57,940 nt of DNA, taken from the NCBI GenBank assembly GCA_945787805.1, contig CALZID010000012.1, positions 1 to 57,940 of the forward strand, read 5' to 3'. Each line of letters begins with the position of its first letter. Position 1 is the stretch's first letter. Shown piece after piece: positions 9,267 through 21,741 of this stretch. A program made the position numbers and the translations under genes. The DNA is from an uncultured Clostridia bacterium. GTDB taxonomy: Bacteria; Bacillota; Clostridia; Oscillospirales; Acutalibacteraceae. The notes under the pieces are model-generated. The model was not told where the DNA came from. It was given only the letters and a program-made list of their open reading frames with translations, and searched no databases.

Positions 9267-12200
9267 TTAACTGTGTTTTTTCTTTTTATTCGCAACAATT
9301 ATCGCAACTGCCGCAACAATGATAACCAATATAATCGGCACAACCATTAACATGATTTTATTTGTATTGTTTTCATTTGAATCGACAGTATCTGTATTTG
9401 TATTGTTTGCATTTACATCTTGCGGTTTTGTAGTATCTTCTGCGACATTTGTGTCTTGTGGCTTTGATACATTATCATTGATATTGCCTGAATTTGTATT
9501 CTGCGAATTAGGGTTATAATTTTTATCATAAGTGAAAGCAATATGCTGTGCTTCACCTATTACACCCGATTTAGACACTGCACGGAAAGCGTATGTATTA
9601 AAACCGTCTTCACTTGCAGTGAATGTGTTAGAATCCATATCAATCCATTCGCCGCCGTTTATACTGTATTGATATTTCGCAATATTCGAATTTTGTCCGT
9701 TTGAAAGCGTTACGGTTACACCTTTATTAAATATTTGGCCATTTTCAATGATGTTACCGTTTGATATTGCTTCCATCTTAAAGTTCTCGGGAACAGATTT
9801 ATCAATCATAACCGCATATTCCCGTGACTGGGCACTTTCACCGCCTGCACCGTTAACTGCTTTAAATTTATAGGCTGCATTGATATTTTCACTTACTATG
9901 AGAACATTGCTGTTCATTTCTTTCCAGCCGTGTCCGTTGTCACAGTAATAAGTAATGCCCGATTTGCTGTTTGTGCTGCTTAATGTGAACACAACATTTT
10001 CAGATGTCCACTCATCTGTTACACCTGTTACATCAACGCAGAGTTCTGGAATGCCTTTTTCAATATTTGAAACGGTTATACTGTCTGACGCTTTATTACC
10101 GTTATTGAGCGTCACTACAACTAAGTATGTTCCGTTTTCGCTTACTGCATATTTGTCCCCGTTAAACTGTTCGCCGTTTACGGTTACATTTGCAATTCCA
10201 CAAGCACTGTTATCGGTAATATCAATGTAAAGTGTTATATCTTCATTTGTGAAATCGACTGTGTTTGCTTTAAGCTCTATTTCAGGAACAGTCTTATCAA
10301 TCATAACCGCATATTCTTGTGACTCGGCACTTTCACTTCCGGCACCGTTGACTGCCTTAAACTTGTAAGCTGCATTGATATTTTCACTTACTGTGAGAAC
10401 ATTGCTGTTCATTTCTTTCCAACCGTGTCCGTTATCATAGTAATATGTTATACCTGAATTTCCGTTAGTTTTGCTCAATGTAAATACGACATCCGACGAA
10501 GTCCAAGCGCCTGTTGTGCCTGTTACACTAACACTGATTTCAGGAATTCCTTTTTCTGTTTTTGTTACGATTGATACCGTATCACTTTCAAGGCCGGAAT
10601 TTGAAACTGCCTTGAAGCTGTAGGTATGAACACCGTCTATGGCAATTAGGCTTTCGGTTGTCATTATGTTCCATTCGCCGTCATCAATGCTGTACATATA
10701 TGAAGCTATTTCGGAGAATGCGGTTGCGCTCGGTGTGAGAATAATATCCTTTGATGTAAATGTACCGCTGTATTCTTCTCCGTCAACCGTTGCGGTAACC
10801 TTTATGTTTTCGGGATTGTCTTTGTCAACTATAAATCCCTTTGATGTGATAGCAGGAGATGTATTGCCCGCATTGTCCACCGCTCTTGCTTCAACATATC
10901 CTTTGAAGTTTACATCTACTGTCGGTTTTCCATTTTCATTATATGCAACCCATTCGGTTGTAGGATTACCGTCTGCATCAAGCAATCTGTATTCAATTCT
11001 GTTAAGACCCGACGCACCCGTATCTTCTGCAGTAACCGAAATTTCTATTTCTTCGTTAAAGAACAGTCCGAATGTAACCGCATTGATGAATTTTGCAAAT
11101 CCGCCCGTATTCTTGTGCTCCGTACCGATATCGGTAACTTTCGGTGCTTCGTAATCAAAGCTTGCAACATTTAATACGGTTGTAGCACTCAACCCATTAT
11201 TTGCCGTTACGGTCACTGTGTATTTTCCGTTTTCGGTTACAGTGAATTCACCTGTATCGGTTATATCGGTACCGTTTACGGTAATTGACTGAATTCCCGA
11301 TATGCCCGCATTTGCAACAACCGTTGCGGTGCGTGCGGAATTAGTAAAGTTTATACTGTCAAGAGCGACCGAGACACTTGGTGCGACAGTATCAAGCATT
11401 ACACTGTATTCGGCACTTTCTGTACTTTCTCTGCCTGTTTCGTCAACTGCTTTGAACTTGTAGGTTTCTGTACCGATATTTACAACGGACAACATATTGC
11501 CGTTCATTGCCTGCCAGCCGTTACCTTTATCGAAATAATAAGTAACATCGCCCTCGCACTCTGTTGCAGAAAGCACAAAAATTGCGGCATTTGAAGTCCA
11601 GCCACCGGTTGTGCCTGTTACGGCAACATTGAGAATAGGCTTCTTTTCAACGAGAAGATAATTTTTATCAACAATAACTCGGTATGACGGGCTTTGATAA
11701 CTTTCGGTGCCCGTACCGTTGACCGCTTTAAAGGTATATGTGGCATCAACAGTGTAATTGACAGTTACTGTATTGCTGTCTAATTCTGTCCAGCCATCAC
11801 CTTTATTGCAATAATATGTAACACCCGAAAGGGTATTCGGTGAAGACAGAGTGATTGTAACATCATCGTATGTTCTGTGGCCGATTGTACCGTCAACCGC
11901 TACCGAAAGAGCAGGAACTGCGTTTTCGTATTTTGTTGACAAAGCAGAAACGGCGCTTTCAAGATTTGCTTTTGAAACGGCCTTAAATTCATAGCTGTTT
12001 TCGCCCACATCTTTAAGAGCTACGGTATTTCCGCTGAGTTTTACCCATTGAGAGCCGGAAATTCTGTAATAGTATTCAAAAATTCCCGAATATGCTTCTG
12101 ACAAAAGTGAAATTTCAATTTCTTTATTTGTCCAACCGCCGTTATACTCTTCACCGTTTACGGTTGCTGAAATTACGGGAGCAGTCGGGTTTATAAGGTC

Positions 12201-15200
12201 AACTGTTATGCCTTCGCTCTTTACTGTTTCGGACATTTTTGTACCCGTTGTATCAAAAGCACGGGCTTCAACACTGCCTTTGAAATTTGAGCTTACAGTG
12301 GGCTTATTTGCGTCATCATATATTGCCCACGAACCTGTGGGGTCACCGTTTTGGTCAAGGAAACGGTATTCGATTTTGCCGATTGCGCCGTCATTGCATG
12401 CAGCTTCCATTGAAACCGTTACATTTTCGTTAAAGTATTTGCCGAAAGCCTCATTAAAGTGATTTGCAAATCCGCCGGCACTTGAAAAATCAATACTTGT
12501 GACCTTGATTTCATAAGTAATAAAGTTTTCTATTCTTAAAACTTCGGTTGATGTAATTCCGTTGTTACCCGTCATTACTAAAACATAGTTTCCGTTTTCA
12601 TTAACGGTAAATCTGTCTTGTCCCGTAATATCAACACCGTTTATGCTGACTGATTTAAGCCCCGACTCGCCCGCTGTAATATTAAACATAACATCATAGG
12701 GCTCGGTTGTGTAATCGGTCTTTTCGGGGGTAAATATGACTGACGGAGCAACATTATCAATCATAACCTTATAACTGTCGGACAAATCGCTTTCTGTATT
12801 TGCACCGTTTATTGCTTTGAAAACATAGGTTGCATTGGTATTATCATTGAGAATAATTTCATTCCCCGTTGTGATTTCCGTCCAGTTTGTTCCGTCGGTA
12901 CTGTAATAATATGTAATACCTGAAACGGCATTTTCAAGTACGGAAAAGCTGAATTTCACATCGCCCGAAGACCATTTGCCGAATGTTCCTTCAAAATCAA
13001 CACGGATAACAGGCTTGATTTTATCAATTTTCACTGTGAACGGTGTCACTGAGCTTTCAAGAGCCGAATAAGACTCTGCCTTAAACTGATATTCTGTAAT
13101 TCCGTGAGTTGAAGCTACGAGCGTGTTACCGCTGAGCTCATTCCATGTTGCGCCGCCGTCGGTACTGTAATAATACATATAAATATCGGAAAAAGCGGTT
13201 GATGAAAGCGTAAGAGTAACATCGGTTGAAGTCCATGTGTCATTTACATAAAGTCCGTCTGCATCTGTTGCGGTAACAACAATATCGGTGGGATTTGTTC
13301 CGTCGATTATGTAGCCTTCGGAATAGTATGAGTCGGACACATTGGTTGCTTTGTCGGTAACTCTGGCTTCGATATAGCCCTTGAAATCAGGGTTCTGTGA
13401 GGGCTTATTACTTTCGTTATAGACCGCCCATGCAGTTATGGGGTCGCCGTTTTCGTCAAGATATCTGTATTCAATAATGTCAACACCCGCAACACCGTAA
13501 TCCACGGCGGAGATTGTTGCTTCGACTTCTTCATTGAAGAATTTGCCGAAAGTGAGTGTATTCACAAACCTTGCAAATCCCCCTGTGTTTTTATGGTTAA
13601 GGGTGACATCGGTAATTTCCGGAGCAGTTTTATCAATGTTTTCAATCAATATCTGCTCTTCTTTTTCTGTACCGCCGACAGTAGTGATTTTTACTTTATA
13701 AGTACCGTTTTCATTTACTGTAAATGAAGTTGTGCCTGTAATATCGTCGCCGTTAAGAAGAATTGAAGAAACTCCCGACGCACCGATGGTACCTATGTTA
13801 ATATTGACATTGTAAGACTGGTTTGTGATTTCTGTTTTTTCAGGCGTAAGCGTAAACGCCGGAGTGACCTTGTCAATATTCACGCTGTAGCCCGTTGTTA
13901 CAGAACTCTCAATGCTTTTGCCGTTGATTGCCTTAAAATAATATGTTTCTTCAATGTTTGTATCAACAGTCAAGGTATTGCCCGTCAAGGCTGTCCAGCC
14001 CGAATCGGAACCGGTCTTATAATAATATGTAATGCCGTCAACCTTGTGCGTACTGTCGAGAGTAAAGGTAACATCTTCTTTTGTCCATTCGCCTGAATAG
14101 TCCGTTGGCTCGGTTGTCACAGACACAACGGGAACACCGTATATGATTACGGGGAATGTATCGGAAGCACTTCTTCCGCAATGTGAATATGTGACTGTAA
14201 TGCTCTGTTCAACATCTAACAAGGTCGGGTCAAAATCAGAAGTATTTACTGTATAGTTTGTGATTTCTTCACTGCTTGCGTTAAGATAATTTGCAACGAC
14301 TTTAAGCCCTGAAAGGTCAAGCGCCGTTTCACCTTCAAGATATTCGTATCTTGGATTTTGTGTTATATCGATTGTATCAACCTGTTTGGATTTTACAAGA
14401 ATGGGGAATATGGTACGCATTTCTTTGCCCGCTCTTGTAACGGTAACAATGATGTACTGTTCGCTGTCAAGTAAATCGGAGTTGATTGCGCTGACTTCGT
14501 AATCAGTAACGGCTACCGTCATTTTGTCGTCAGTCCAGCTTGCTGCTTCGGGATAATACTGAGCAAGCTCATTTTTATCGTATGTTATTTTTACTTCTAA
14601 GCCTGAAAGGTCAAGCTCGGTTTCGCCCTCAAGATATTCATATTTTGTAGGTGCGGTTACGGCAATACTCTTGGGAGTAAGCTCAACAACAGTAATGTCT
14701 TTGTAAAGTGTTTGTTTTGATGATGCAGTTAAATTATTCTGCATATATGTCCAGAGTTCTGCCGAACCTGCCTTTAATCCCGAAACAGTGCCTGATGAAG
14801 CGCTTACAGAAATGTATTCATTCTGTGTATCGTCCATACTCGAAACTGTTTTGTTATTGTCATCCCACGGTTTATTGCCGTTTGCATCCGGTGTACCCCA
14901 GAATTGACGGTAAACGCCCATTCTTACGGGAGTGTGGGATGATGCAAAGGTATAGGGGAAATCCACAACAACCGCATCGGGGCCGTTAATTTTACCACCG
15001 GTATATTTATTAAGGCCGAGTTTTGCAGAAACTTTAATTGTAAATATTTTTGAAACACCGCCGATTGTTGCGGTAATTGTTGTGCTTTGTGAGGGATTCT
15101 TGATAGGGGAATAATTGCCGCCTGCATCAAGACCTTTTACAACGCCGTTTGAGTCAACAGATGCGATTGATGGGTCAGCCGAAGTCCAGACGATTGTGTC

Positions 15201-16769
15201 AAGCAATGCCGGGTCATAGTCTGCGGGAGTGACAGAGGTTATTGTCAGCGTTGTTGAGTCACCCTCTTTGATTGAATCGCTGCCTGAAATTGTGAAATCG
15301 GTTATGGCGTTACCGACGGAAACTTCAAAAATATTTGATACTGTTGTGCCGTTGTATTCCGCATCTATAAAGATTTTTGATTTACCTGATGACAAACCTG
15401 TAAAATTGCCGTTGTTGTCAATCTTACCTATTCCGTCAGTAGCTTCACTGTCCGACGCATAAATTTTATCTCCCGTAATCGGGTCAATAAGTCCCCAACG
15501 CCTTATAACATCAGAGTTTGAATTAAGTCGGGAAGGCGTAATTGTTGCAGAATATACCGCACTGTTGCCGATACCCACAGCCGTGTCACCGCTGATTTCA
15601 ACACCTGAAATAGTGCTGCCGAAGAGATTTCTGGAGACTGTTACGGTAAATGTCTTTGTAACACCGCCTATTGTTGCGCTTATTGTTGCGGTTTTTGAAT
15701 ATGTGAGTCCGCTGCCGCCGTCAAGTCCGGTAACAACACCGTTCTGGTCAACCAATGCAACTGACGGGTCAGAGGATGACCATACCAAATCGCCCGTATA
15801 TGCACCGGCAGGGACAAGGTTACTGATAGCAAGCTGAATTGTTTTACCCTCATCAACTTTTGTTGCACCTGTGATTTCAAAATTCGTCACCGGAAGCTCC
15901 GATGGGTCAACAATAGTGAATGTAATTTTATCAGAGAAAAGCAGTTTATATGCAGCGCTTTTGGGATTGAGTTTAACGGTTGCCTGACCGGGAGCATTAA
16001 AGGTTACAAGTCCCGTATCAGAAACTGAAGCTTTTGAAGAAGATGAAGAACCGTCCATTGACCACGCAACATCCTGTTTAAGACGCACGGGAGTACATGC
16101 GCCGTAAAGCTGAACCGTTGTACCGACGGCAACAGTAGTCGGGACACTTTTCTTGTTTGTTATATGCACACCCGTGGGAGCAACCGAAGCAATAATGCTC
16201 TTTTCAACTATAACTTCTACTGTATCTTCTGCAAGGACAGTTTCGTATTCGTCATAGAGAATTGCCTTAATTTCAATAGTCATATTGTCAAGTACAGACT
16301 GCAAGCTGTCTGCAAGGGTATCACCCACAACTGTTCTGACTATCGTAACAATGGTATTAGTGTCGGCAGTTTCAATATCAATACCTGCGGATTCAAGAGC
16401 GCTGACAATACCGTCCGCCATTGCGTCGCCTATAAGCGGAGTTGAACGCACTTCTTCGTCGAGCCACTGTTGAAAAATAGCCGCTTTTGAATAGTCATAG
16501 GCCGTAACCTTACCGTTATCGTTAACACCCGCTAACAAAGGCTGACTGCTAACCCAATCAACACGGGCGCCTTCGGGCATATCGGATGAAAGAGTATAAC
16601 TCAATTGCACAGAATTATACTCCTTAATTGAAATTCTTTCGGTTACAACCGTGCCGTCATTTGTAATCTCCAATGTGATACTTGCCGAGAATGTACTTAA
16701 CCCCGGTATCAACATTGTTGTAATCAAGATTGCACACAAAAGCACGCTCATTATCTTATTTTTTCTCAC
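9267..16769 (-). CDS. giant modular surface protein (about 2500 aa)
   Basis: Secreted, membrane-anchored adhesin-like protein. Order of parts: signal peptide (RKNKIMSVLLCAILITTMLI); N-terminal region of about 170 residues; about five BIG2-like Ig domains (encoded about 16140-14660, with WSSSDPSVALVD); two Big_3-like domains, each opening YEYLEGET and then LDLSGL; and ten tandem modules of about 75 residues with the pattern W-T-x2-D-V...GITYYY...NxL...FKAVNG...ES. Three larger TGGFA...FNEE domains interrupt the modules. An Asn/Thr/Asp-rich stalk, one membrane helix (MLMVVPIILVIIVAAVAII) and KKKKHS end it. There is no LPxTG. I chose GTG at 16769 (GGGAG 8 bases upstream); an upstream GTG at 16814 overlaps the promoter -10. 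Ligand unknown. Confidence 0.9.
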   Translation of the reverse strand: MRKNKIMSVLLCAILITTMLIPGLSTFSASITLEITNDGTVVTERISIKEYNSVQLSYTLSSDMPEGARVDWVSSQPLLAGVNDNGKVTAYDYSKAAIFQQWLDEEVRSTPLIGDAMADGIVSALESAGIDIETADTNTIVTIVRTVVGDTLADSLQSVLDNMTIEIKAILYDEYETVLAEDTVEVIVEKSIIASVAPTGVHITNKKSVPTTVAVGTTVQLYGACTPVRLKQDVAWSMDGSSSSSKASVSDTGLVTFNAPGQATVKLNPKSAAYKLLFSDKITFTIVDPSELPVTNFEITGATKVDEGKTIQLAISNLVPAGAYTGDLVWSSSDPSVALVDQNGVVTGLDGGSGLTYSKTATISATIGGVTKTFTVTVSRNLFGSTISGVEISGDTAVGIGNSAVYSATITPSRLNSNSDVIRRWGLIDPITGDKIYASDSEATDGIGKIDNNGNFTGLSSGKSKIFIDAEYNGTTVSNIFEVSVGNAITDFTISGSDSIKEGDSTTLTITSVTPADYDPALLDTIVWTSADPSIASVDSNGVVKGLDAGGNYSPIKNPSQSTTITATIGGVSKIFTIKVSAKLGLNKYTGGKINGPDAVVVDFPYTFASSHTPVRMGVYRQFWGTPDANGNKPWDDNNKTVSSMDDTQNEYISVSASSGTVSGLKAGSAELWTYMQNNLTASSKQTLYKDITVVELTPKSIAVTAPTKYEYLEGETELDLSGLEVKITYDKNELAQYYPEAASWTDDKMTVAVTDYEVSAINSDLLDSEQYIIVTVTRAGKEMRTIFPILVKSKQVDTIDITQNPRYEYLEGETALDLSGLKVVANYLNASSEEITNYTVNTSDFDPTLLDVEQSITVTYSHCGRSASDTFPVIIYGVPVVSVTTEPTDYSGEWTKEDVTFTLDSTHKVDGITYYYKTGSDSGWTALTGNTLTVDTNIEETYYFKAINGKSIESSVTTGYSVNIDKVTPAFTLTPEKTEITNQSYNVNINIGTIGASGVSSILLNGDDITGTTSFTVNENGTYKVKITTVGGTEKEEQILIENIDKTAPEITDVTLNHKNTGGFARFVNTLTFGKFFNEEVEATISAVDYGVAGVDIIEYRYLDENGDPITAWAVYNESNKPSQNPDFKGYIEARVTDKATNVSDSYYSEGYIIDGTNPTDIVVTATDADGLYVNDTWTSTDVTLTLSSTAFSDIYMYYYSTDGGATWNELSGNTLVASTHGITEYQFKAESYSALESSVTPFTVKIDKIKPVIRVDFEGTFGKWSSGDVKFSFSVLENAVSGITYYYSTDGTNWTEITTGNEIILNDNTNATYVFKAINGANTESDLSDSYKVMIDNVAPSVIFTPEKTDYTTEPYDVMFNITAGESGLKSVSINGVDITGQDRFTVNENGNYVLVMTGNNGITSTEVLRIENFITYEIKVTSIDFSSAGGFANHFNEAFGKYFNENVTVSMEAACNDGAIGKIEYRFLDQNGDPTGSWAIYDDANKPTVSSNFKGSVEARAFDTTGTKMSETVKSEGITVDLINPTAPVISATVNGEEYNGGWTNKEIEISLLSEAYSGIFEYYYRISGSQWVKLSGNTVALKDVGENSYEFKAVSKANLESAVSALSTKYENAVPALSVAVDGTIGHRTYDDVTITLSSPNTLSGVTYYCNKGDGWTELDSNTVTVNYTVDATYTFKAVNGTGTESYQSPSYRVIVDKNYLLVEKKPILNVAVTGTTGGWTSNAAIFVLSATECEGDVTYYFDKGNGWQAMNGNMLSVVNIGTETYKFKAVDETGRESTESAEYSVMLDTVAPSVSVALDSINFTNSARTATVVANAGISGIQSITVNGTDITDTGEFTVTENGKYTVTVTANNGLSATTVLNVASFDYEAPKVTDIGTEHKNTGGFAKFINAVTFGLFFNEEIEISVTAEDTGASGLNRIEYRLLDADGNPTTEWVAYNENGKPTVDVNFKGYVEARAVDNAGNTSPAITSKGFIVDKDNPENIKVTATVDGEEYSGTFTSKDIILTPSATAFSEIASYMYSIDDGEWNIMTTESLIAIDGVHTYSFKAVSNSGLESDTVSIVTKTEKGIPEISVSVTGTTGAWTSSDVVFTLSKTNGNSGITYYYDNGHGWKEMNSNVLTVSENINAAYKFKAVNGAGSESAESQEYAVMIDKTVPEIELKANTVDFTNEDITLYIDITDNSACGIANVTVNGEQFNGDKYAVSENGTYLVVVTLNNGNKASDSITVSNIEKGIPELCVDVTGVTDEWTSENVVFTLSSTNSKSGITYYCDNGHGWKEMNSNVLIVSENINAAYKFKAVNGAGGESAQSREYAVMIDKSVPENFKMEAISNGNIIENGQIFNKGVTVTLSNGQNSNIAKYQYSINGGEWIDMDSNTFTASEDGFNTYAFRAVSKSGVIGEAQHIAFTYDKNYNPNSQNTNSGNINDNVSKPQDTNVAEDTTKPQDVNANNTNTDTVDSNENNTNKIMLMVVPIILVIIVAAVAIIVANKKKKHS

Positions 16770-16805
16770 AAAATCAGCTCCCAGTGAAAAAATGTAATTA
16801 GAAAA

Positions 16806-16834
16806 ATTATACACTAAAACCTAAGAAATTTCAA
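16806..16834 (-). promoter_or_regulatory. promoter of the giant surface protein gene
   Basis: Minus strand TTGAAA (16834-16829), 17-base spacer, TATAAT (16811-16806). Because the -10 box overlaps the GTG at 16814, that GTG cannot be the start; the GTG at 16769 is favoured. Confidence 0.65.
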
Positions 16835-16971: not shown

Positions 16972-17343
16972 TCACTTCAAATCTTCACTATATACAAACT
17001 GCGTATTGATAGGAATTTTAAAAAAGTCATTATCCCCATTGTCAATCAATATAAGGGTGTTCTTATCCTTAATCTCAAATTCAAATGTTGTGCTTTGTGA
17101 AGTGGCAATAATCTTTCCGTCTGCAATTTTATAAGAGCCATATTCCTGATAAGAAACTACAGAACCGGCACCAAAACGAAACTCATTGTTATCGGTATCA
17201 AGCGAAAGATACGGCGTTAACATTTCTTCATAATCGCCAACAGCATAATAGCAGCCGGAAAGAACAGGGGTTGTATCAGAATCACAACCTACGAATGAAA
17301 ATAGCATCAACAAGCAAATCAAAAAACAAATAATTCGTTTCAT
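16972..17343 (-). CDS. small lipoprotein
   Basis: 123 residues with a clear lipoprotein signal (KRIICFLICLLMLFSFVGC, lipobox FVGC at about residue 19) and a mature part of about 100 residues rich in beta-strand-like segments and acidic residues. It would be attached to the outer face of the membrane by a diacylglyceryl cysteine, processed by the LspA encoded at 32858. The ATG overlaps the stop of the four-helix-bundle gene (ATGA), so the two are coupled. Family not recognised; no enzymatic motif seen. Confidence 0.8.
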   Translation of the reverse strand: MKRIICFLICLLMLFSFVGCDSDTTPVLSGCYYAVGDYEEMLTPYLSLDTDNNEFRFGAGSVVSYQEYGSYKIADGKIIATSQSTTFEFEIKDKNTLILIDNGDNDFFKIPINTQFVYSEDLK

Positions 17344-17687
17344 TTTATACTCTCCTTTAATGTCTTACAACTTGCAATCAACATTCGTCTGATTCGACCG
17401 CAAAGATTTCTATGCTTTTTATAGATTTCTTCATCAATAGCGTTCGTATTGAACAACAAACGCAACCATCCTTCGGTTTCGCTACATTCCTTAAGAGCAA
17501 TTTCAAATTTTGAAAGCATATCCGCTTTGCTTTGCCCATAATTTGCTTCACGAATGTTTGCATAAACACTGCTCGAACTTTTACGGATCTGAAAAAGAGT
17601 GTTAGATGGTGCTTTGATATTTTGGCATAGCAATTCTATTTCTGTTGCAAGCTGTTCAGAATATATCAGCAAATAATTTTTCGGCAT
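17340..17687 (-). CDS. four-helix-bundle protein (S23/IVP family)
   Basis: 115 residues, all helical by composition, with SSSVYANIREANYGQSKADM and a later FEIALKECSETEGWL, the typical signature of the 23S-intervening-sequence protein family (TIGR02436-like). Such proteins form small pentameric four-helix bundles related to the Avd accessory protein of diversity-generating retroelements; their role is mostly unknown. Here it is a free-standing gene, not in an rRNA insert, and no reverse transcriptase is nearby. AAAGGAGTG precedes the ATG. It heads a two-gene unit with the lipoprotein, and its promoter abuts the hairpin array at 17735-17900. Confidence 0.85.
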   Translation of the reverse strand: MPKNYLLIYSEQLATEIELLCQNIKAPSNTLFQIRKSSSSVYANIREANYGQSKADMLSKFEIALKECSETEGWLRLLFNTNAIDEEIYKKHRNLCGRIRRMLIASCKTLKESIK

Positions 17688-18096: not shown

Positions 18097-18888
18097 TTAG
18101 AATATGTGTTTCCACTTGTCACTTTTTCTGAATGAGAAGTATTCGTCGCCGTGACCGATGATAATGTGGTCGTTAAGCTTAATTCCGACTGACTCCAACA
18201 CATTTGCCATTGCAATAGTTGCATTGATATCTGCTTTTGAAGGCGCAGTAATACCTGAAGGATGGTTATGTATCAAAATTACACTTGCCGCCTTTGAAAG
18301 AATGGCACATTCGGTTATTTTGCGATTATTTATCATTGTGGCATTTATTGTGCCTTCACTTATCAAATCAAAGCTTAATTTCTTACAATTACTGTCAAGA
18401 CATAGCAAGTATAGTTTTTCTTCGGTTAAGCCCACAAAATGCTTTGCGGCATATTTGGCAACAAGCTCGGAGCTGTTAAGATGAACTTCTGTCTTGTTGA
18501 GCTTATCTTTCTCGTACATTCTGAAAAGCTGCGGCATAAGTTTAATCAGGAGAGCGCTGCGCTCACCTACCCCTTCGACTTTGCAAAGTTCTTCATAATC
18601 AGCATCAAGCACCTCTGACAATGAGCCGAAACGGTAAATCAAGTTATGAGCTATTTCATTAGTATCTTTCACCGGAATACTATAAAACAGCAATAGCTCA
18701 AGTATGTTGTGGTCTTGAAAGGTTTCGAGTCCGTTATTCAAAAAACTCTCTCGGAGTCTTTGCCTATGCTTTTCGTGCGGATTTTCGGGCTTTTTCTTGG
18801 GTTTTGATGATTCCTTCAACACATTTCCTTCAAGACCGACTTTTTCTCTGTTTTTATACTCATACATATCGGGCACTTTTCTTGCCAT
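18097..18888 (-). CDS. radC: RadC-family JAB domain protein
   Basis: 263 residues. N-terminal helix-hairpin-helix area (KVEGVGERSALLI, about residues 105-120) followed by the JAB/MPN metalloprotease-like fold with LIHNHPSGITAPSKAD, which supplies the HxH...D metal site. Despite the name, a repair role is not proven; RadC proteins are widespread in bacteria and also in mobile elements. It is the last gene of the metF-DUF5685-J-membrane protein run, two bases after the membrane protein stop, so it is co-transcribed. Length slightly above the usual 225 because of a polar N-terminal extension. Confidence 0.92.
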   Translation of the reverse strand: MARKVPDMYEYKNREKVGLEGNVLKESSKPKKKPENPHEKHRQRLRESFLNNGLETFQDHNILELLLFYSIPVKDTNEIAHNLIYRFGSLSEVLDADYEELCKVEGVGERSALLIKLMPQLFRMYEKDKLNKTEVHLNSSELVAKYAAKHFVGLTEEKLYLLCLDSNCKKLSFDLISEGTINATMINNRKITECAILSKAASVILIHNHPSGITAPSKADINATIAMANVLESVGIKLNDHIIIGHGDEYFSFRKSDKWKHIF

Positions 18889-18890
18889 TA

Positions 18891-19436
18891 TTATTTAAAC
18901 ATCCTTTTAATATATTTTTGCCAACGAACCAAATAAACTGTTACCAATCGGGTTAATGCTATATCATAAAGCGCAAAAACTATATTACCCACAAGCAACA
19001 ATGCCGGTAAAGCGTATTTGCCCAAAAAATCAATATCGTCAAATGAAATCATAAATACTTTTGATATCACAAAATATGAAGAAATCATTGCTATATTAAA
19101 AATTAAATATTTAATTATCCAAGAGAGAGTTTTGCCGGTTTTATTCTCAATGAAGCTCTTAATTATCGGATAATACCCAAAAAACGCAGCATACATTACT
19201 GCGGCTTCTTTATCGGCAACAACTAACAAAGAGAGTATTGATACGGCAATATAGATAGCGCCGGCAAAAACAGAGCCCAGTTCGATAACCACTGCCATTA
19301 ACAACGCTCCGCACAAAGCCGGAATTGCATAAGTTAATGTCGGAATTATGCCCGTGGAGAACATAAACACAATTGACAAAGCCACAATTATTCCGCCGAA
19401 TGCAGCTTTAAAAGAAAGCAATTTATTATTTCTCAT
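18891..19436 (-). CDS. integral membrane protein, unknown family
   Basis: 181 residues with about five to six membrane helices and an opening that includes LLSFKAAFGGIIVALSIVF. The IPTLTYAIPALCGALLMAVV stretch, the DKEAAVMYAAFFGYYPI stretch and a C-terminal LYDIALTRLV are distinctive and I associate them with a conserved but uncharacterised clostridial membrane family; similarity in style to ECF-type substrate-binding subunits is possible. It sits between the J-domain protein (1 base gap) and radC (2 base gap), so all are almost certainly made together. Function unknown. Confidence 0.8.
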   Translation of the reverse strand: MRNNKLLSFKAAFGGIIVALSIVFMFSTGIIPTLTYAIPALCGALLMAVVIELGSVFAGAIYIAVSILSLLVVADKEAAVMYAAFFGYYPIIKSFIENKTGKTLSWIIKYLIFNIAMISSYFVISKVFMISFDDIDFLGKYALPALLLVGNIVFALYDIALTRLVTVYLVRWQKYIKRMFK

Positions 19437-19437
19437 A

Positions 19438-20025
19438 TCAACAACATGGGATTAAATCCCCACCCATACATTCACAGCAACAGTCGGCGCAGATTAGTCC
19501 CTGACAGATATCGCAAGTGCTGCAGCCCGATGCATTACGAGATGTTCTGTATCCGCCTGTTGAATTCATATTCATTGCGTTAAATGCCGCCGCATATTCG
19601 CTGTTTGACGGGTCCATCGAACAAGCGGTCTGATAACAACGGTAGGCTTCGTTCAGCCAACCGCGCCGTTGATGAATCATTCCTTTCAAGTAGTGCCATT
19701 CGGCAGTTCTCATATTATTGGGAATTCCGTCAAGAATTGTTTCAGCATCATCAATTCTGCCGGCATTTATTCTCTGCCGAACATCTGAGAATTGTGAAGA
19801 ACCTCCCTTATATGAAGAATTCGAGTTGTTATAATAAGCGCCTGTGCCTCTGATTTCGTTGAGCACATAGTCATAAGCTTCATTAAGTTCATTCATTCTG
19901 CTTGTTTTTTCACTGTCGGAAGAAGATGAATTCTGTATGCTTGCCGCAATGCTTCTGTATGCGTTCATAACCTCTTGTTCAGATGCATTTTTGCCAACCC
20001 CGAGAAATTCATAAGGATTATTCAC
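19438..20025 (-). CDS. J-domain-like protein lacking HPD, with Cys-rich tail
   Basis: 195 residues. N-terminal J-like segment begins NPYEFLGVGKNASEQEVMNA and later has MNELNEAYDYVLNE, but the HPD tripeptide that activates DnaK is replaced by a serine-rich stretch (SIQNSSSSDSE). The middle part looks like one or two TPR helices (AEWHYLKGMIHQRRGWLNEA, then YRCYQTACSMDP). The last 28 residues hold ten cysteines, including the motifs CSTCDIC and CADCCCEC, probably a metal-binding or disulfide module. I prefer GTG at 20025, with GAGG 8 bases upstream; the GTG at 20034 lies inside the ribosome site. It overlaps the end of the DUF5685 gene by 8 bases. Confidence 0.82.
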   Translation of the reverse strand: MNNPYEFLGVGKNASEQEVMNAYRSIAASIQNSSSSDSEKTSRMNELNEAYDYVLNEIRGTGAYYNNSNSSYKGGSSQFSDVRQRINAGRIDDAETILDGIPNNMRTAEWHYLKGMIHQRRGWLNEAYRCYQTACSMDPSNSEYAAAFNAMNMNSTGGYRTSRNASGCSTCDICQGLICADCCCECMGGDLIPCC

Positions 20026-20863
20026 TTTTCTCACCTCTGTATTTTTTTATAATTCTGTCTAACTGATAATTCAAACCGTCATATATAATATTATTTATTA
20101 TTGACTCAGTTTTATTAAATTTAAGTTCCTGCAAAAGCATAGTTAATTCGCCGATTGAAAGTCTTATTGAAACCGCAGCATCACTCTCGACATCTTTTGA
20201 TTTAAAAAACGGATTAAATGAATTTGACTTTTCATCATCTTTGTAATCATCAAAAGCGTCAAGATAATAGACTACCCTGCCCAATTGATAACCGAATCTA
20301 TATGATTTTTCGTATACTTCTTCATTTTCGCCGTAAGAAAATAACCACCCGAGCATTTTTGCCGATGCATCAGCCGATAAATCCAAGCTTGGATTTTCCT
20401 GTTTTTCAACATCAAGCTGTTCTTCCATACCCTTTTCTATTGTTTTATATATATCCGGATATTTTTTAACGGCTTTATTTTTGAGTAAAGCAAAATAAGG
20501 TAAAATCAGATAAAAAAGCAATTTTTTTATTGTTTTGCTATCATTCAAATTATCTTTTAATTTAAAATATGCCAAAATCACGGTTATGGCGCTTGCTGTT
20601 TTATAGATGTCATCTTCGCAAGTAATTTTAAAGCATTTTTTACAAGGATTGAATGTACAACGGGACATTTTTGCATTTGTATCAGCATTTCTTATACCCA
20701 TTTTAAACAGTACAAAAAATGCGCCGTCATAACTTAAAAGAAATCTTGAAAGAACACCGTATTCTTTTCCCATTTCTTTGCAAAGGGTACAATAAACGCC
20801 CTTATATGCGTCGTAATCTTTAATTTTAAGTTCAGGTTTATAAGCAGTTACATAGCCGAACAT
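20018..20863 (-). CDS. DUF5685 family protein
   Basis: 281 residues, mostly helical, beginning MFGYVTAYKPELKIKDYDAY. Near the N-terminus are YCTLCK and then RCTFNPCKKCFKITCEDD, a cluster of six cysteines likely to bind metal. A later AYFKLKDNLND recalls the aspartate-rich helices of all-alpha isoprenoid-type folds, but the classic DDxxD is not present, so this is only resemblance. The DUF5685 assignment is from memory of the family pattern. It follows metF by 3 bases and overlaps the J-domain-like gene, so a joint role with that protein is inferred. No function is established. Confidence 0.75.
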   Translation of the reverse strand: MFGYVTAYKPELKIKDYDAYKGVYCTLCKEMGKEYGVLSRFLLSYDGAFFVLFKMGIRNADTNAKMSRCTFNPCKKCFKITCEDDIYKTASAITVILAYFKLKDNLNDSKTIKKLLFYLILPYFALLKNKAVKKYPDIYKTIEKGMEEQLDVEKQENPSLDLSADASAKMLGWLFSYGENEEVYEKSYRFGYQLGRVVYYLDAFDDYKDDEKSNSFNPFFKSKDVESDAAVSIRLSIGELTMLLQELKFNKTESIINNIIYDGLNYQLDRIIKKYRGEKSE

Positions 20864-20866
20864 AAA

Positions 20867-21724
20867 CTATTTGTTAATCCCCTTTAATACCGTTTTGGCA
20901 ACATGCGGTTTGTTCATGGTATAAATGTGAATTCCGTTCACTCCGTTTGACAGGAGTTCATTGATTTGATTTATTGCAAAGTCAAGCCCTGCTTTTTCAA
21001 GCTCTGTCGGGTTATCTTTATATTTTTCAAGAAAATCACTGACTTTCGGCGGTATTTTTGTACCCGACAAAGAGATAATTCTATCAATTTGCTTAATATT
21101 GGTAATCGGCATAATACCCGCAAAAATCGGAGCATAAACGCCTTTCTTTCTAACCTTTTCTAAAAACTCACAGAAAACACCGTTATCATAAAAAAGCTGT
21201 GTTATGAAGAAATCTACTCCGCAATCAAATTTGATTTTTAAATTATCGATATCTTTTTCAAGACTGTCACATTCGGGATGACACTCGGGATAACAAGCGC
21301 CGCCGATATCGAAGCATTCATATTTTTTTATGTGTGCAACAAGCTCACTCGCATATTTATAGTATTCACCCGCAGGTTTTACAAAATCGGTGGGAATATC
21401 GCCCCGCATAGCAAGGATATTGTCGATATTATTTTCTTTTAATGCTTCAAGTATCTCATCAATTTTTTCCTTGGATGTTGACGCACAGGTCAAATGAGCA
21501 AGGGCAGTTGTATCAAGCCTGTTTTTAATAAGTGACGCAATTTTTGTTGTATATTGACTTGTGCCGCCGCCCGCACCGTATGTAACACTCATAAAGTCAG
21601 GGTTAAATGCCGCAAGCTCTCTGACTGACCACTCAATACTGTCGAATGCCGAATCGGTTTTTGGCGGAAAAACTTCAAAAGAAATCAATTGATCCTTAAC
21701 CATCAATTTTTCAGTAATTCTCAT
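20867..21724 (-). CDS. metF: 5,10-methylenetetrahydrofolate reductase
   Basis: 285-residue FAD-binding TIM-barrel enzyme reducing methylene-THF to methyl-THF for methionine synthesis. Motifs: SFEVFPPKTD at the N-terminus, SVTYGAGG, LAHLTC, NILAMRGDIP and DFFITQLFYD. I start at the ATG at 21724 behind GGTGGTGAAATTT; the frame is open to GTG at 21736. It lies 118 bases downstream of the Stn-like complex but a hairpin terminator and a new promoter separate them, so coupling to that complex is not demanded. It is first in a run of five tightly packed genes ending at radC. Confidence 0.94.
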   Translation of the reverse strand: MRITEKLMVKDQLISFEVFPPKTDSAFDSIEWSVRELAAFNPDFMSVTYGAGGGTSQYTTKIASLIKNRLDTTALAHLTCASTSKEKIDEILEALKENNIDNILAMRGDIPTDFVKPAGEYYKYASELVAHIKKYECFDIGGACYPECHPECDSLEKDIDNLKIKFDCGVDFFITQLFYDNGVFCEFLEKVRKKGVYAPIFAGIMPITNIKQIDRIISLSGTKIPPKVSDFLEKYKDNPTELEKAGLDFAINQINELLSNGVNGIHIYTMNKPHVAKTVLKGINK

Positions 21725-21741
21725 AAATTTCACCACCTATG

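Follow-up and report, generated by a model that had tools for sequence, protein, structure and literature searches.

A conserved clostridial gene pair: DUF5685, a probable isoprenoid-synthase-like protein, and a C-terminal cysteine tail carried by a J-like adaptor

What could a DUF5685 protein, a J-like protein ending in a cluster of cysteines and a small membrane protein have to do with one another, when their genes are packed end to end in an uncultured Clostridia bacterium? The question is raised by a 57,940-nucleotide stretch of DNA (hereafter the window, meaning the whole stretch analysed; GenBank assembly GCA_945787805.1, contig CALZID010000012.1, positions 1 to 57,940; Oscillospirales, Acutalibacteraceae), on the minus strand of which all window features described below are encoded. 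The DUF5685 gene (20018..20863, 281 residues; Pfam PF18937, E 2e-70, 237.5 bits against a curated cut-off of 26.7) encodes a protein predicted to be mainly helical and class I isoprenoid-synthase-like. Its partner (19438..20034, 198 residues, GTG start), whose open reading frame overlaps that of DUF5685 by 17 nucleotides, combines a J-like domain, a TPR-like repeat and a cysteine tail, and the gene of a multi-helix, DUF2232-like membrane protein (18891..19436, 181 residues) follows 1 nucleotide further on. The original prediction, made from this DNA alone, had grouped these overlapping or abutting genes as one metal- or thiol-handling assembly at the membrane, and the coordinates and gaps bear out the arrangement. 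As described here, DUF5685 and a C-terminal cysteine-rich tail are the constant pair of the unit, and we propose, tentatively and at less than even confidence, that the unit is a membrane-bound chaperone adaptor whose cysteine tail is handled, perhaps S-prenylated, by DUF5685.

Whether the three genes belong together is answered by their neighbourhoods. Searches of 59 related genomes, with the J-like protein and then with PF18937, found DUF5685 and its cysteine-tailed partner together in 51 and neither of them in 8, the latter offering at most an ordinary DnaJ as a match. At the 50 near loci, which exclude genome G028, whose partner gene runs off its contig, DUF5685 lies beside the partner in every case, and the membrane protein is there too in 49. 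When a public genome collection was scanned with an alignment of 8 DUF5685 rows, at least 592 relatives were confirmed, and the complete triad is present in all 80 named loci, the best 80 of these relatives. Since the record titles of these loci mostly name Clostridia (Acutalibacter, Anaeromassilibacillus, Caproiciproducens, Ruminococcus and Oscillospiraceae bins; a few read only 'bacterium'), the 80 are a sample that is not spread over the phylum. In the 170-row DUF5685 alignment a few genes are doubled, some loci having been fetched by two routes (the contigs of L033/L211, L045/L241 and L093/L249 agree in length), and the 80 are therefore not wholly independent of the other loci. Thus, the J-like gene is the regular companion of DUF5685 rather than a gene usually lying apart from it, and the survey supports the three genes as one unit.

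Across the phylum, DUF5685 occurs in 45 of 398 genomes. The cysteine-tailed protein is adjacent in 38 of these 45 and is encoded about 4 to 8 kb away in four (G112, G214, G282, G306), while in one (G207) the tail is fused to DUF5685; no cysteine-tailed protein was found in one of the 45 (G192), which carries a DUF5685 fragment, and a weak DUF5685 match with stops (G387) was left out of this partner count. Even a second DUF5685 copy in G055 (locus L280, 4693-6175), which does not share a contig with that genome's triad, precedes the gene of a J-less protein of 173 residues; this protein has a cysteine-rich end and is unmatched by the hidden Markov model (HMM) of the partner. Outside the order, partners without a J domain (L075, L098, L103, L105, L106) all still end in the cysteine tail, as do partners without the TPR part (L058, L067). 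It is the cysteine tail, and not the J or the TPR part, that stays with DUF5685.

In the window, alignments and a pattern scan place the tail, CSTCDICQGLICADCCCECMGGDLIPCC, at 19441..19524, where ten cysteines fall within residues 171-198, as had been noted. The form common in the window's order is CxxCDxCxxLxCADxCCECxGGDxIxCC; spacing and number vary between lineages, with 5-18 cysteines in the last 40 residues of 50 partners, and there are hydrophobic versions, such as LCFGLCIADLCCPFC and CLQGFCLGLALQAICGNCK, which have the appearance of ends that are lipidated or dip into the membrane. A DNA pattern for CCECxGGD was found in 15 of 396 genomes, in 14 of them at the DUF5685 locus, and a reversed control pattern in 1. 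The sole match away from DUF5685 (L173, 733-1680) reads CCECIGGD inside a polyprenyl-synthase-like protein, which we take to be reminiscent of ComQ; being internal rather than C-terminal, it was set aside as a chance match. Of the other long open frames in the loci, 1746 in all, 21 have at least 5 cysteines in their last 30 residues, namely 14 refetched partner genes, the fused DUF5685 (L097), a TPR/cysteine protein of L186 and five frames that look non-coding. A Pfam scan of three isolated tails returned no family.

The second member of the pair points to isoprenoid chemistry. Two Asp-rich motifs of DUF5685 are almost invariant in the 170-row alignment: the first (D104-NLN-D108; 20540..20554; KLKDNLND), with D104 in 170 and D108 in 169 rows, stands at the C-terminal end of predicted helix 86-108, and the second (D202xxxD206xxxD210...N217; 20213..20260; DAFDDYKDD and then an N seven residues on), with its three aspartates in all 170 rows and N217 in 169, at the end of predicted helix 181-205; D108 and N217 are each replaced once. 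The spacing of these motifs is that of 28 DUF2600 sequences collected in this analysis. An AlphaFold2 model (pLDDT 94.7, 41 rows, using 41 of 50 proteins) puts both motifs at C-terminal helix ends, the position that characterises class I isoprenoid synthases, with the second motif ending the fourth helix after the first. The helix order in this model is the one known for the fold.

Comparisons at the level of families lean the same way, if weakly. In Pfam, one of 41 DUF5685 proteins matches DUF2600 (E 7e-4), without passing the curated cut-off of any isoprenoid family; 15 further families each match a single member, at E 0.007 to 0.33, which sets the noise level of the scan. Since initial comparisons of profiles gave low probabilities (DUF2600 7-13%; squalene synthase, a profile of 2 sequences only, 4-12%), profiles of 24 gene families, DUF5685 included, were built from the fetched loci. 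The best non-self match of the 170-row DUF5685 profile was then polyprenyl synthase (E 2e-4), followed by DUF2600, squalene synthase and a second DUF2600 set at E 0.006-0.013, with unrelated families from E 0.035 on. At a loose setting, the polyprenyl synthase alignment covers most of the DUF5685 length with both Asp motifs in register, and its score was reached by none of 120 shuffles (60 by column and 60 by block). A PDB profile search returned designed helical proteins, interferon-gamma and a few single weak matches, and no isoprenoid synthase. Therefore, the Asp-rich motifs, together with best non-self matches among isoprenoid synthases, point to lipid or isoprenoid chemistry, and DUF5685 probably has a diverged class I isoprenoid-synthase fold that keeps both metal-diphosphate motifs.

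The six-cysteine cluster that had been ascribed to DUF5685 survived in part. The window protein does have cysteines at 25, 28, 69, 74, 77 and 82, but only C25, C28 and C69 are conserved (each in 87 of 88 rows, the 88th being a gap), whereas C74, C77 and C82 are cysteine in 13, 37 and 9 of 88 rows, and a single cluster of all six was accordingly rejected. In the larger alignment, C25 and C28 (20780..20791) are each present in 168 of 170 rows, and C69 (20657..20659), which lies beside a predicted beta-hairpin (strands 62-68 and 76-82), in 169, all remaining rows being gaps. Conservation of cysteines thus holds for the tail and for three of the six in DUF5685.

The carrier of the tail in the window is J-like, and here the family departs from what the window alone suggested. 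The J-domain model PF00226 matches the partner just above its cut-off (29.7 against 27.8 bits), TPR_2 (PF07719; residues 111-144; 19603..19704) just under its own (26.4 against 27 bits), and NCBIfam gave sub-threshold matches only for the three unit proteins. By alignment of the partners, the place of the HPD motif (19927..19935) reads QNS, so that the description as a J-like/TPR protein without HPD and with a ten-cysteine tail was correct. HPD is found in none of 34 loci of the window's genus, whereas 15 of 16 others in the alignment of 50 partners keep it, and the partner is on this account called J-like and no strict J-domain protein (Hsp40). The residues A29, Y30, R31, A34, M51, E53, A57 and D59 of the J helices (open frame numbering) are kept at 90% or more within the genus, which suggests that a J-like fold is retained without HPD; the ordinary DnaJ keeps HPD in the three genomes of the genus that were looked at. 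In the 80 best loci, HPD accompanies the cysteine tail in 76. The loss of HPD is local, in the window's genus, and the proposal that it was paired with a gain of the tail was rejected, as the tail goes with an intact HPD in most lineages seen. For the same reason, the suggestion of scaffolding rather than dependence on DnaK can apply at most to the window's genus, and full-length Hsp70 genes stand beside the unit in three other genomes. At one locus (L059, 823-1480), the HPD-bearing J part and the TPR/cysteine part are in two overlapping open frames; this split is a frameshift or an assembly error.

The membrane protein of the unit, predicted as multi-helical, is modelled by AlphaFold2 with seven helices (pLDDT 90, 38 rows, using 38 of 49 proteins). 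DUF2232 is a relative of the S components of ECF transporters. The Pfam model of this family (DUF2232/YybS, PF09991) is matched by 10 of 38 scanned relatives (best E 3e-4), and the window protein, having no Pfam match, does not reach its cut-off; profile comparison matches the two families over 129 columns (92%, E 8e-7), a score that 0 of 120 shuffles reach, although the membrane protein has 181 residues against about 300. A PDB profile search with this protein matched nothing. Six genomes (G255, G088, G085, G312, G372, G415) have a different small protein beside the unit, in which hydrophobic stretches and a zinc-ribbon-like end can be made out by eye; the two that were scanned gave no more than sub-threshold Pfam matches. 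A stretch MYGRYGIDQLYY or similar occurs, along with hydrophobic segments and an end resembling a zinc ribbon, in small proteins next to the cysteine-tailed partner at L081 (5465-5965), L086 (2789-3214) and L273 (4019-4432), and the usual membrane protein was not found in the genomes of this group.

Neighbours in some deep lineages include polyprenyl synthases and parts of the Hsp70 machinery. A polyprenyl synthase gene lies near DUF5685 in 5 genomes of three families (G207, G282, G306, G214, G112; the copy at L184 matches PF00348 at E 2e-37). In all of these but G207, the gene that follows encodes a relative of the L184 membrane protein; the L184 protein itself matches PF09991 (E 2e-7), and the L102 copy is without a Pfam match. 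After DUF2232, this membrane protein of the deep clusters is the best non-self match of the unit's membrane protein among the 24 families (63%, E 7e-5), a result that ties the two kinds of cluster more closely together. In G255, G088 and G372, whose J partner has HPD, the unit has an Hsp70 gene next to it; in G282, G306 and G112, Hsp70 genes occur inside the gene cluster, accompanied by GrpE in the last two. The 80 best loci contain one clear Hsp70 (L224, E 1e-99) and two weaker matches (L206, L227), which may be MreB. In control loci, Hsp70 was found in none of 62 round DUF2600, DUF2232 or squalene synthase genes, and polyprenyl synthase in 0 of 30 DUF2232 and 21 of 30 DUF2600 loci, the latter as expected for that pathway; these counts are uneven, the control loci being mostly about 4 kb and the DUF5685 loci up to 15 kb, with some genomes extended further.

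The deep clusters have two further features. Two different short Hsp70 genes, of about 510-530 residues each, can lie in one cluster (L275 4613-6217 with L099 197-1798; L276 4866-6401 with L102 313-1845), together with a GrpE gene in G306. In G282, G306 and G112, a further protein beside Hsp70 ends in an HPD-less J-like stretch (L275 6178-6948, L276 6402-7085, L184 3754-4647), for which two J-domain profiles rank first among 25 (57-74%); a Pfam scan of this protein gave no J domain and no family over its cut-off.

Known systems resemble parts of the unit. Among trans-isoprenyl diphosphate synthases (PF00348), the best non-self profile match, the Gln before the second motif corresponds to Tyr in DUF5685 (87 of 88 rows). 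The tetraprenyl-beta-curcumene synthase YtpB (DUF2600, PF10776) shares with DUF5685 the DNLxD motif and DxxxDxxxD with an N seven residues on, at the same spacing; DUF5685 is shorter, with 98 rather than about 160 residues between the motifs, and has in addition three conserved cysteines and a cysteine-tailed partner. The published motifs of YtpB/BalTS, which those of DUF5685 resemble, are DYLDNLxD and DY(F,L,W)IDxxED (PMC7839719). A precedent for prenylation of peptides by related enzymes comes from ComQ and PalQ, isoprenoid-synthase-like proteins whose target is tryptophan, where that proposed for DUF5685 is cysteine (PMC13290415). With its J domain and cysteine-rich tail, the partner also recalls the eukaryotic cysteine string protein DNAJC5, one of numerous J proteins, and not the top one, that the HPD-bearing partner of L036 matches; in bacteria, the tail forms the extreme C-terminus, includes acidic residues and is accompanied by a DUF5685 gene, and the likeness meant here is one of make-up, with no claim to homology of the tails. 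Our literature search, which left subscription papers and preprints outside its scope, found DUF5685/PF18937 only as a name in a list for a C. difficile strain, no published description of the three-gene unit, nothing on a J domain with a cysteine-rich C-terminus and HPD, and, among the papers listed for DUF2232/YybS, nothing of use. A family kept across many families of Clostridia is thus one for which no role was found in print.

How might these parts act together? The tail sits on a small adaptor of variable make-up (J and TPR, J alone, TPR alone) or, once, on DUF5685 itself. Judging from its sequence, DUF5685 would bind a prenyl diphosphate and act on this tail, the most likely route being S-prenylation of one or more tail cysteines, with C25, C28 and C69 perhaps holding a metal that activates the thiol. 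The prenylated tail would hold the adaptor to the membrane, next to the DUF2232-like protein; an HPD-bearing adaptor could call Hsp70 to this site, and in the window's genus the adaptor would be an Hsp70-independent scaffold. It is the pairing of an isoprenoid-synthase-like protein with a very C-terminal cysteine tail that suggests the tail as the substrate or partner of DUF5685, and the HPD pattern makes Hsp70 recruitment an optional part. A membrane or lipid role of the tail appears to us an evenly balanced question, and prenyl transfer to a tail cysteine a possible but doubtful step. In its boldest form, which we regard as a rather unlikely conjecture, DUF5685 would be the first bacterial cysteine protein prenyltransferase, joining an isoprenoid-synthase fold to a three-cysteine metal site and S-prenylating the tail of a chaperone adaptor, and bacteria would arrive, through different chemistry, at a membrane-anchored equivalent of the eukaryotic cysteine string protein.

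Several observations weigh against the explanation proposed here. The polyprenyl synthase match has a weak probability of 46%, and its score of 35.4 is close to the best block shuffle (34.6); the probabilities for the DUF2600 and squalene synthase profiles are 3-6%, and the DUF2600 score was reached by 2 of 60 block shuffles. At E 1e-8, no polyprenyl synthase was found in the 80 best loci up to 7 kb on each side, and the physical link is therefore confined to deep lineages; even there, the gene is co-directional with DUF5685 only in G207. In G112, G214, G282 and G306, the two are on opposite strands and thus not in one transcript, which makes the link a little weaker. The membrane protein was found by HMM in 17 of 44 examined phylum genomes. 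In G207 (L097), no partner was found, and the tail is the end of DUF5685 itself, whose last 100 residues include 14 cysteines. In the window's order the tail, with its acidic residues and GGD, looks like a defined metal or docking site, unlike a plain lipid string. Finally, the trans-IDS-like (isoprenyl diphosphate synthase-like) peptide prenyltransferases characterised so far all act on tryptophan (PMC13290415).

Some of these points lead towards the assembly first suggested for the locus, in which the tail would bind Zn, Fe-S or another soft metal and the adaptor, with the three-cysteine site of DUF5685, would pass metal or reducing power at the membrane. The near-fixed spacing of the ten tail cysteines and their accompanying D, E and GGD within much of the order favour such an assembly, as does the almost complete conservation of C25, C28 and C69; yet the tail varies widely between lineages, up to hydrophobic versions, nothing metal-related was recognised among the neighbours, of which no systematic survey was made, and the Asp motifs of DUF5685 would go unused. 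Metal or thiol handling by tail and DUF5685 cysteines is thus a reading we can entertain with considerable doubt, as the Asp motifs and profile matches point to isoprenoid chemistry. Those motifs would be put to use if DUF5685 produced a small isoprenoid of the membrane, as a terpenoid or prenyl-diphosphate synthase, with the tail and the J/TPR parts only scaffolding or stabilising it. The polyprenyl synthase neighbours in 5 genomes fit this alternative, as does the motif spacing shared with YtpB, a C35 terpene synthase (PMC7839719), but a constant cysteine tail beside DUF5685, even beside the second copy of G055, and three conserved DUF5685 cysteines would be left unexplained, and we hold it to be distinctly unlikely. 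A specialised Hsp70 pathway, in which the adaptor brings Hsp70 to a client at the membrane and DUF5685 binds the client without being an enzyme, would account for the six genomes with Hsp70 in or beside the cluster and for HPD in most of the best loci. It is improbable, however, given that the window's genus has lost HPD at each of its 34 loci and kept the rest of the unit, that the J domain is absent in several lineages, and that invariant Asp motifs would be unexpected in a non-catalytic part.

There remains the thought that genes merely happen to cluster in a compact genome, since they abut on both sides of the unit too. Upstream, 3 nucleotides away, lies the gene for methylenetetrahydrofolate reductase (MTHFR; 20867..21736; PF02219, E 5e-84) and downstream, 2 nucleotides away, that for RadC (18097..18888; PF04002, E 3e-36); both are probably in the same transcript as the unit. 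Within the window's genus, MTHFR adjoins the unit at 23 of 34 loci (some loci being cut short) and RadC at 32 of 34, but outside the genus MTHFR does so in 0 of 16 and RadC in 1 of 16 (L045). These two genes are outside the conserved unit, and the persistence of the triad in the best and near loci refutes chance clustering, to which we give a practically negligible probability.

Other interpretations and features of the loci may be noted briefly. A defence system is unsupported, with no PADLOC match for 6 proteins at E 0.01, and so is a phage origin, none of 40 pattern matches in viral contigs being a relative by tblastn. Plasmid records gave 2 relatives, both in records over 380 kb. The record of L284 (NZ_AP023421.1), called plasmid pMM59_01 and 504 kb long, has DUF5685 and a J-domain gene as neighbours of gmk, rpoZ, priA and cdaA, and may be a chromid or a piece of a chromosome. 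Downstream of RadC in the window, a free-standing four-helix protein of the 23S rRNA intervening-sequence type (17340-17687; PF05635, E 5e-19) adjoins a small lipoprotein-like gene. At 9267-16814 lies what looks like a large surface protein, 2515 residues long, with a signal-like start, Big-type-looking repeats (by eye) and a hydrophobic stretch near its C-terminus.

With regard to the chaperone side, the unit offers a series from nature in which a J-like protein loses HPD and keeps its other helix residues. If DUF5685 does act on the tail as proposed, it would represent a new branch of the isoprenoid synthase superfamily, tied to an Hsp70/J adaptor through a cysteine tail, and bacteria may then lipid-modify the tail of a chaperone, a question for which the unit provides a concrete enzyme-substrate pair to test.

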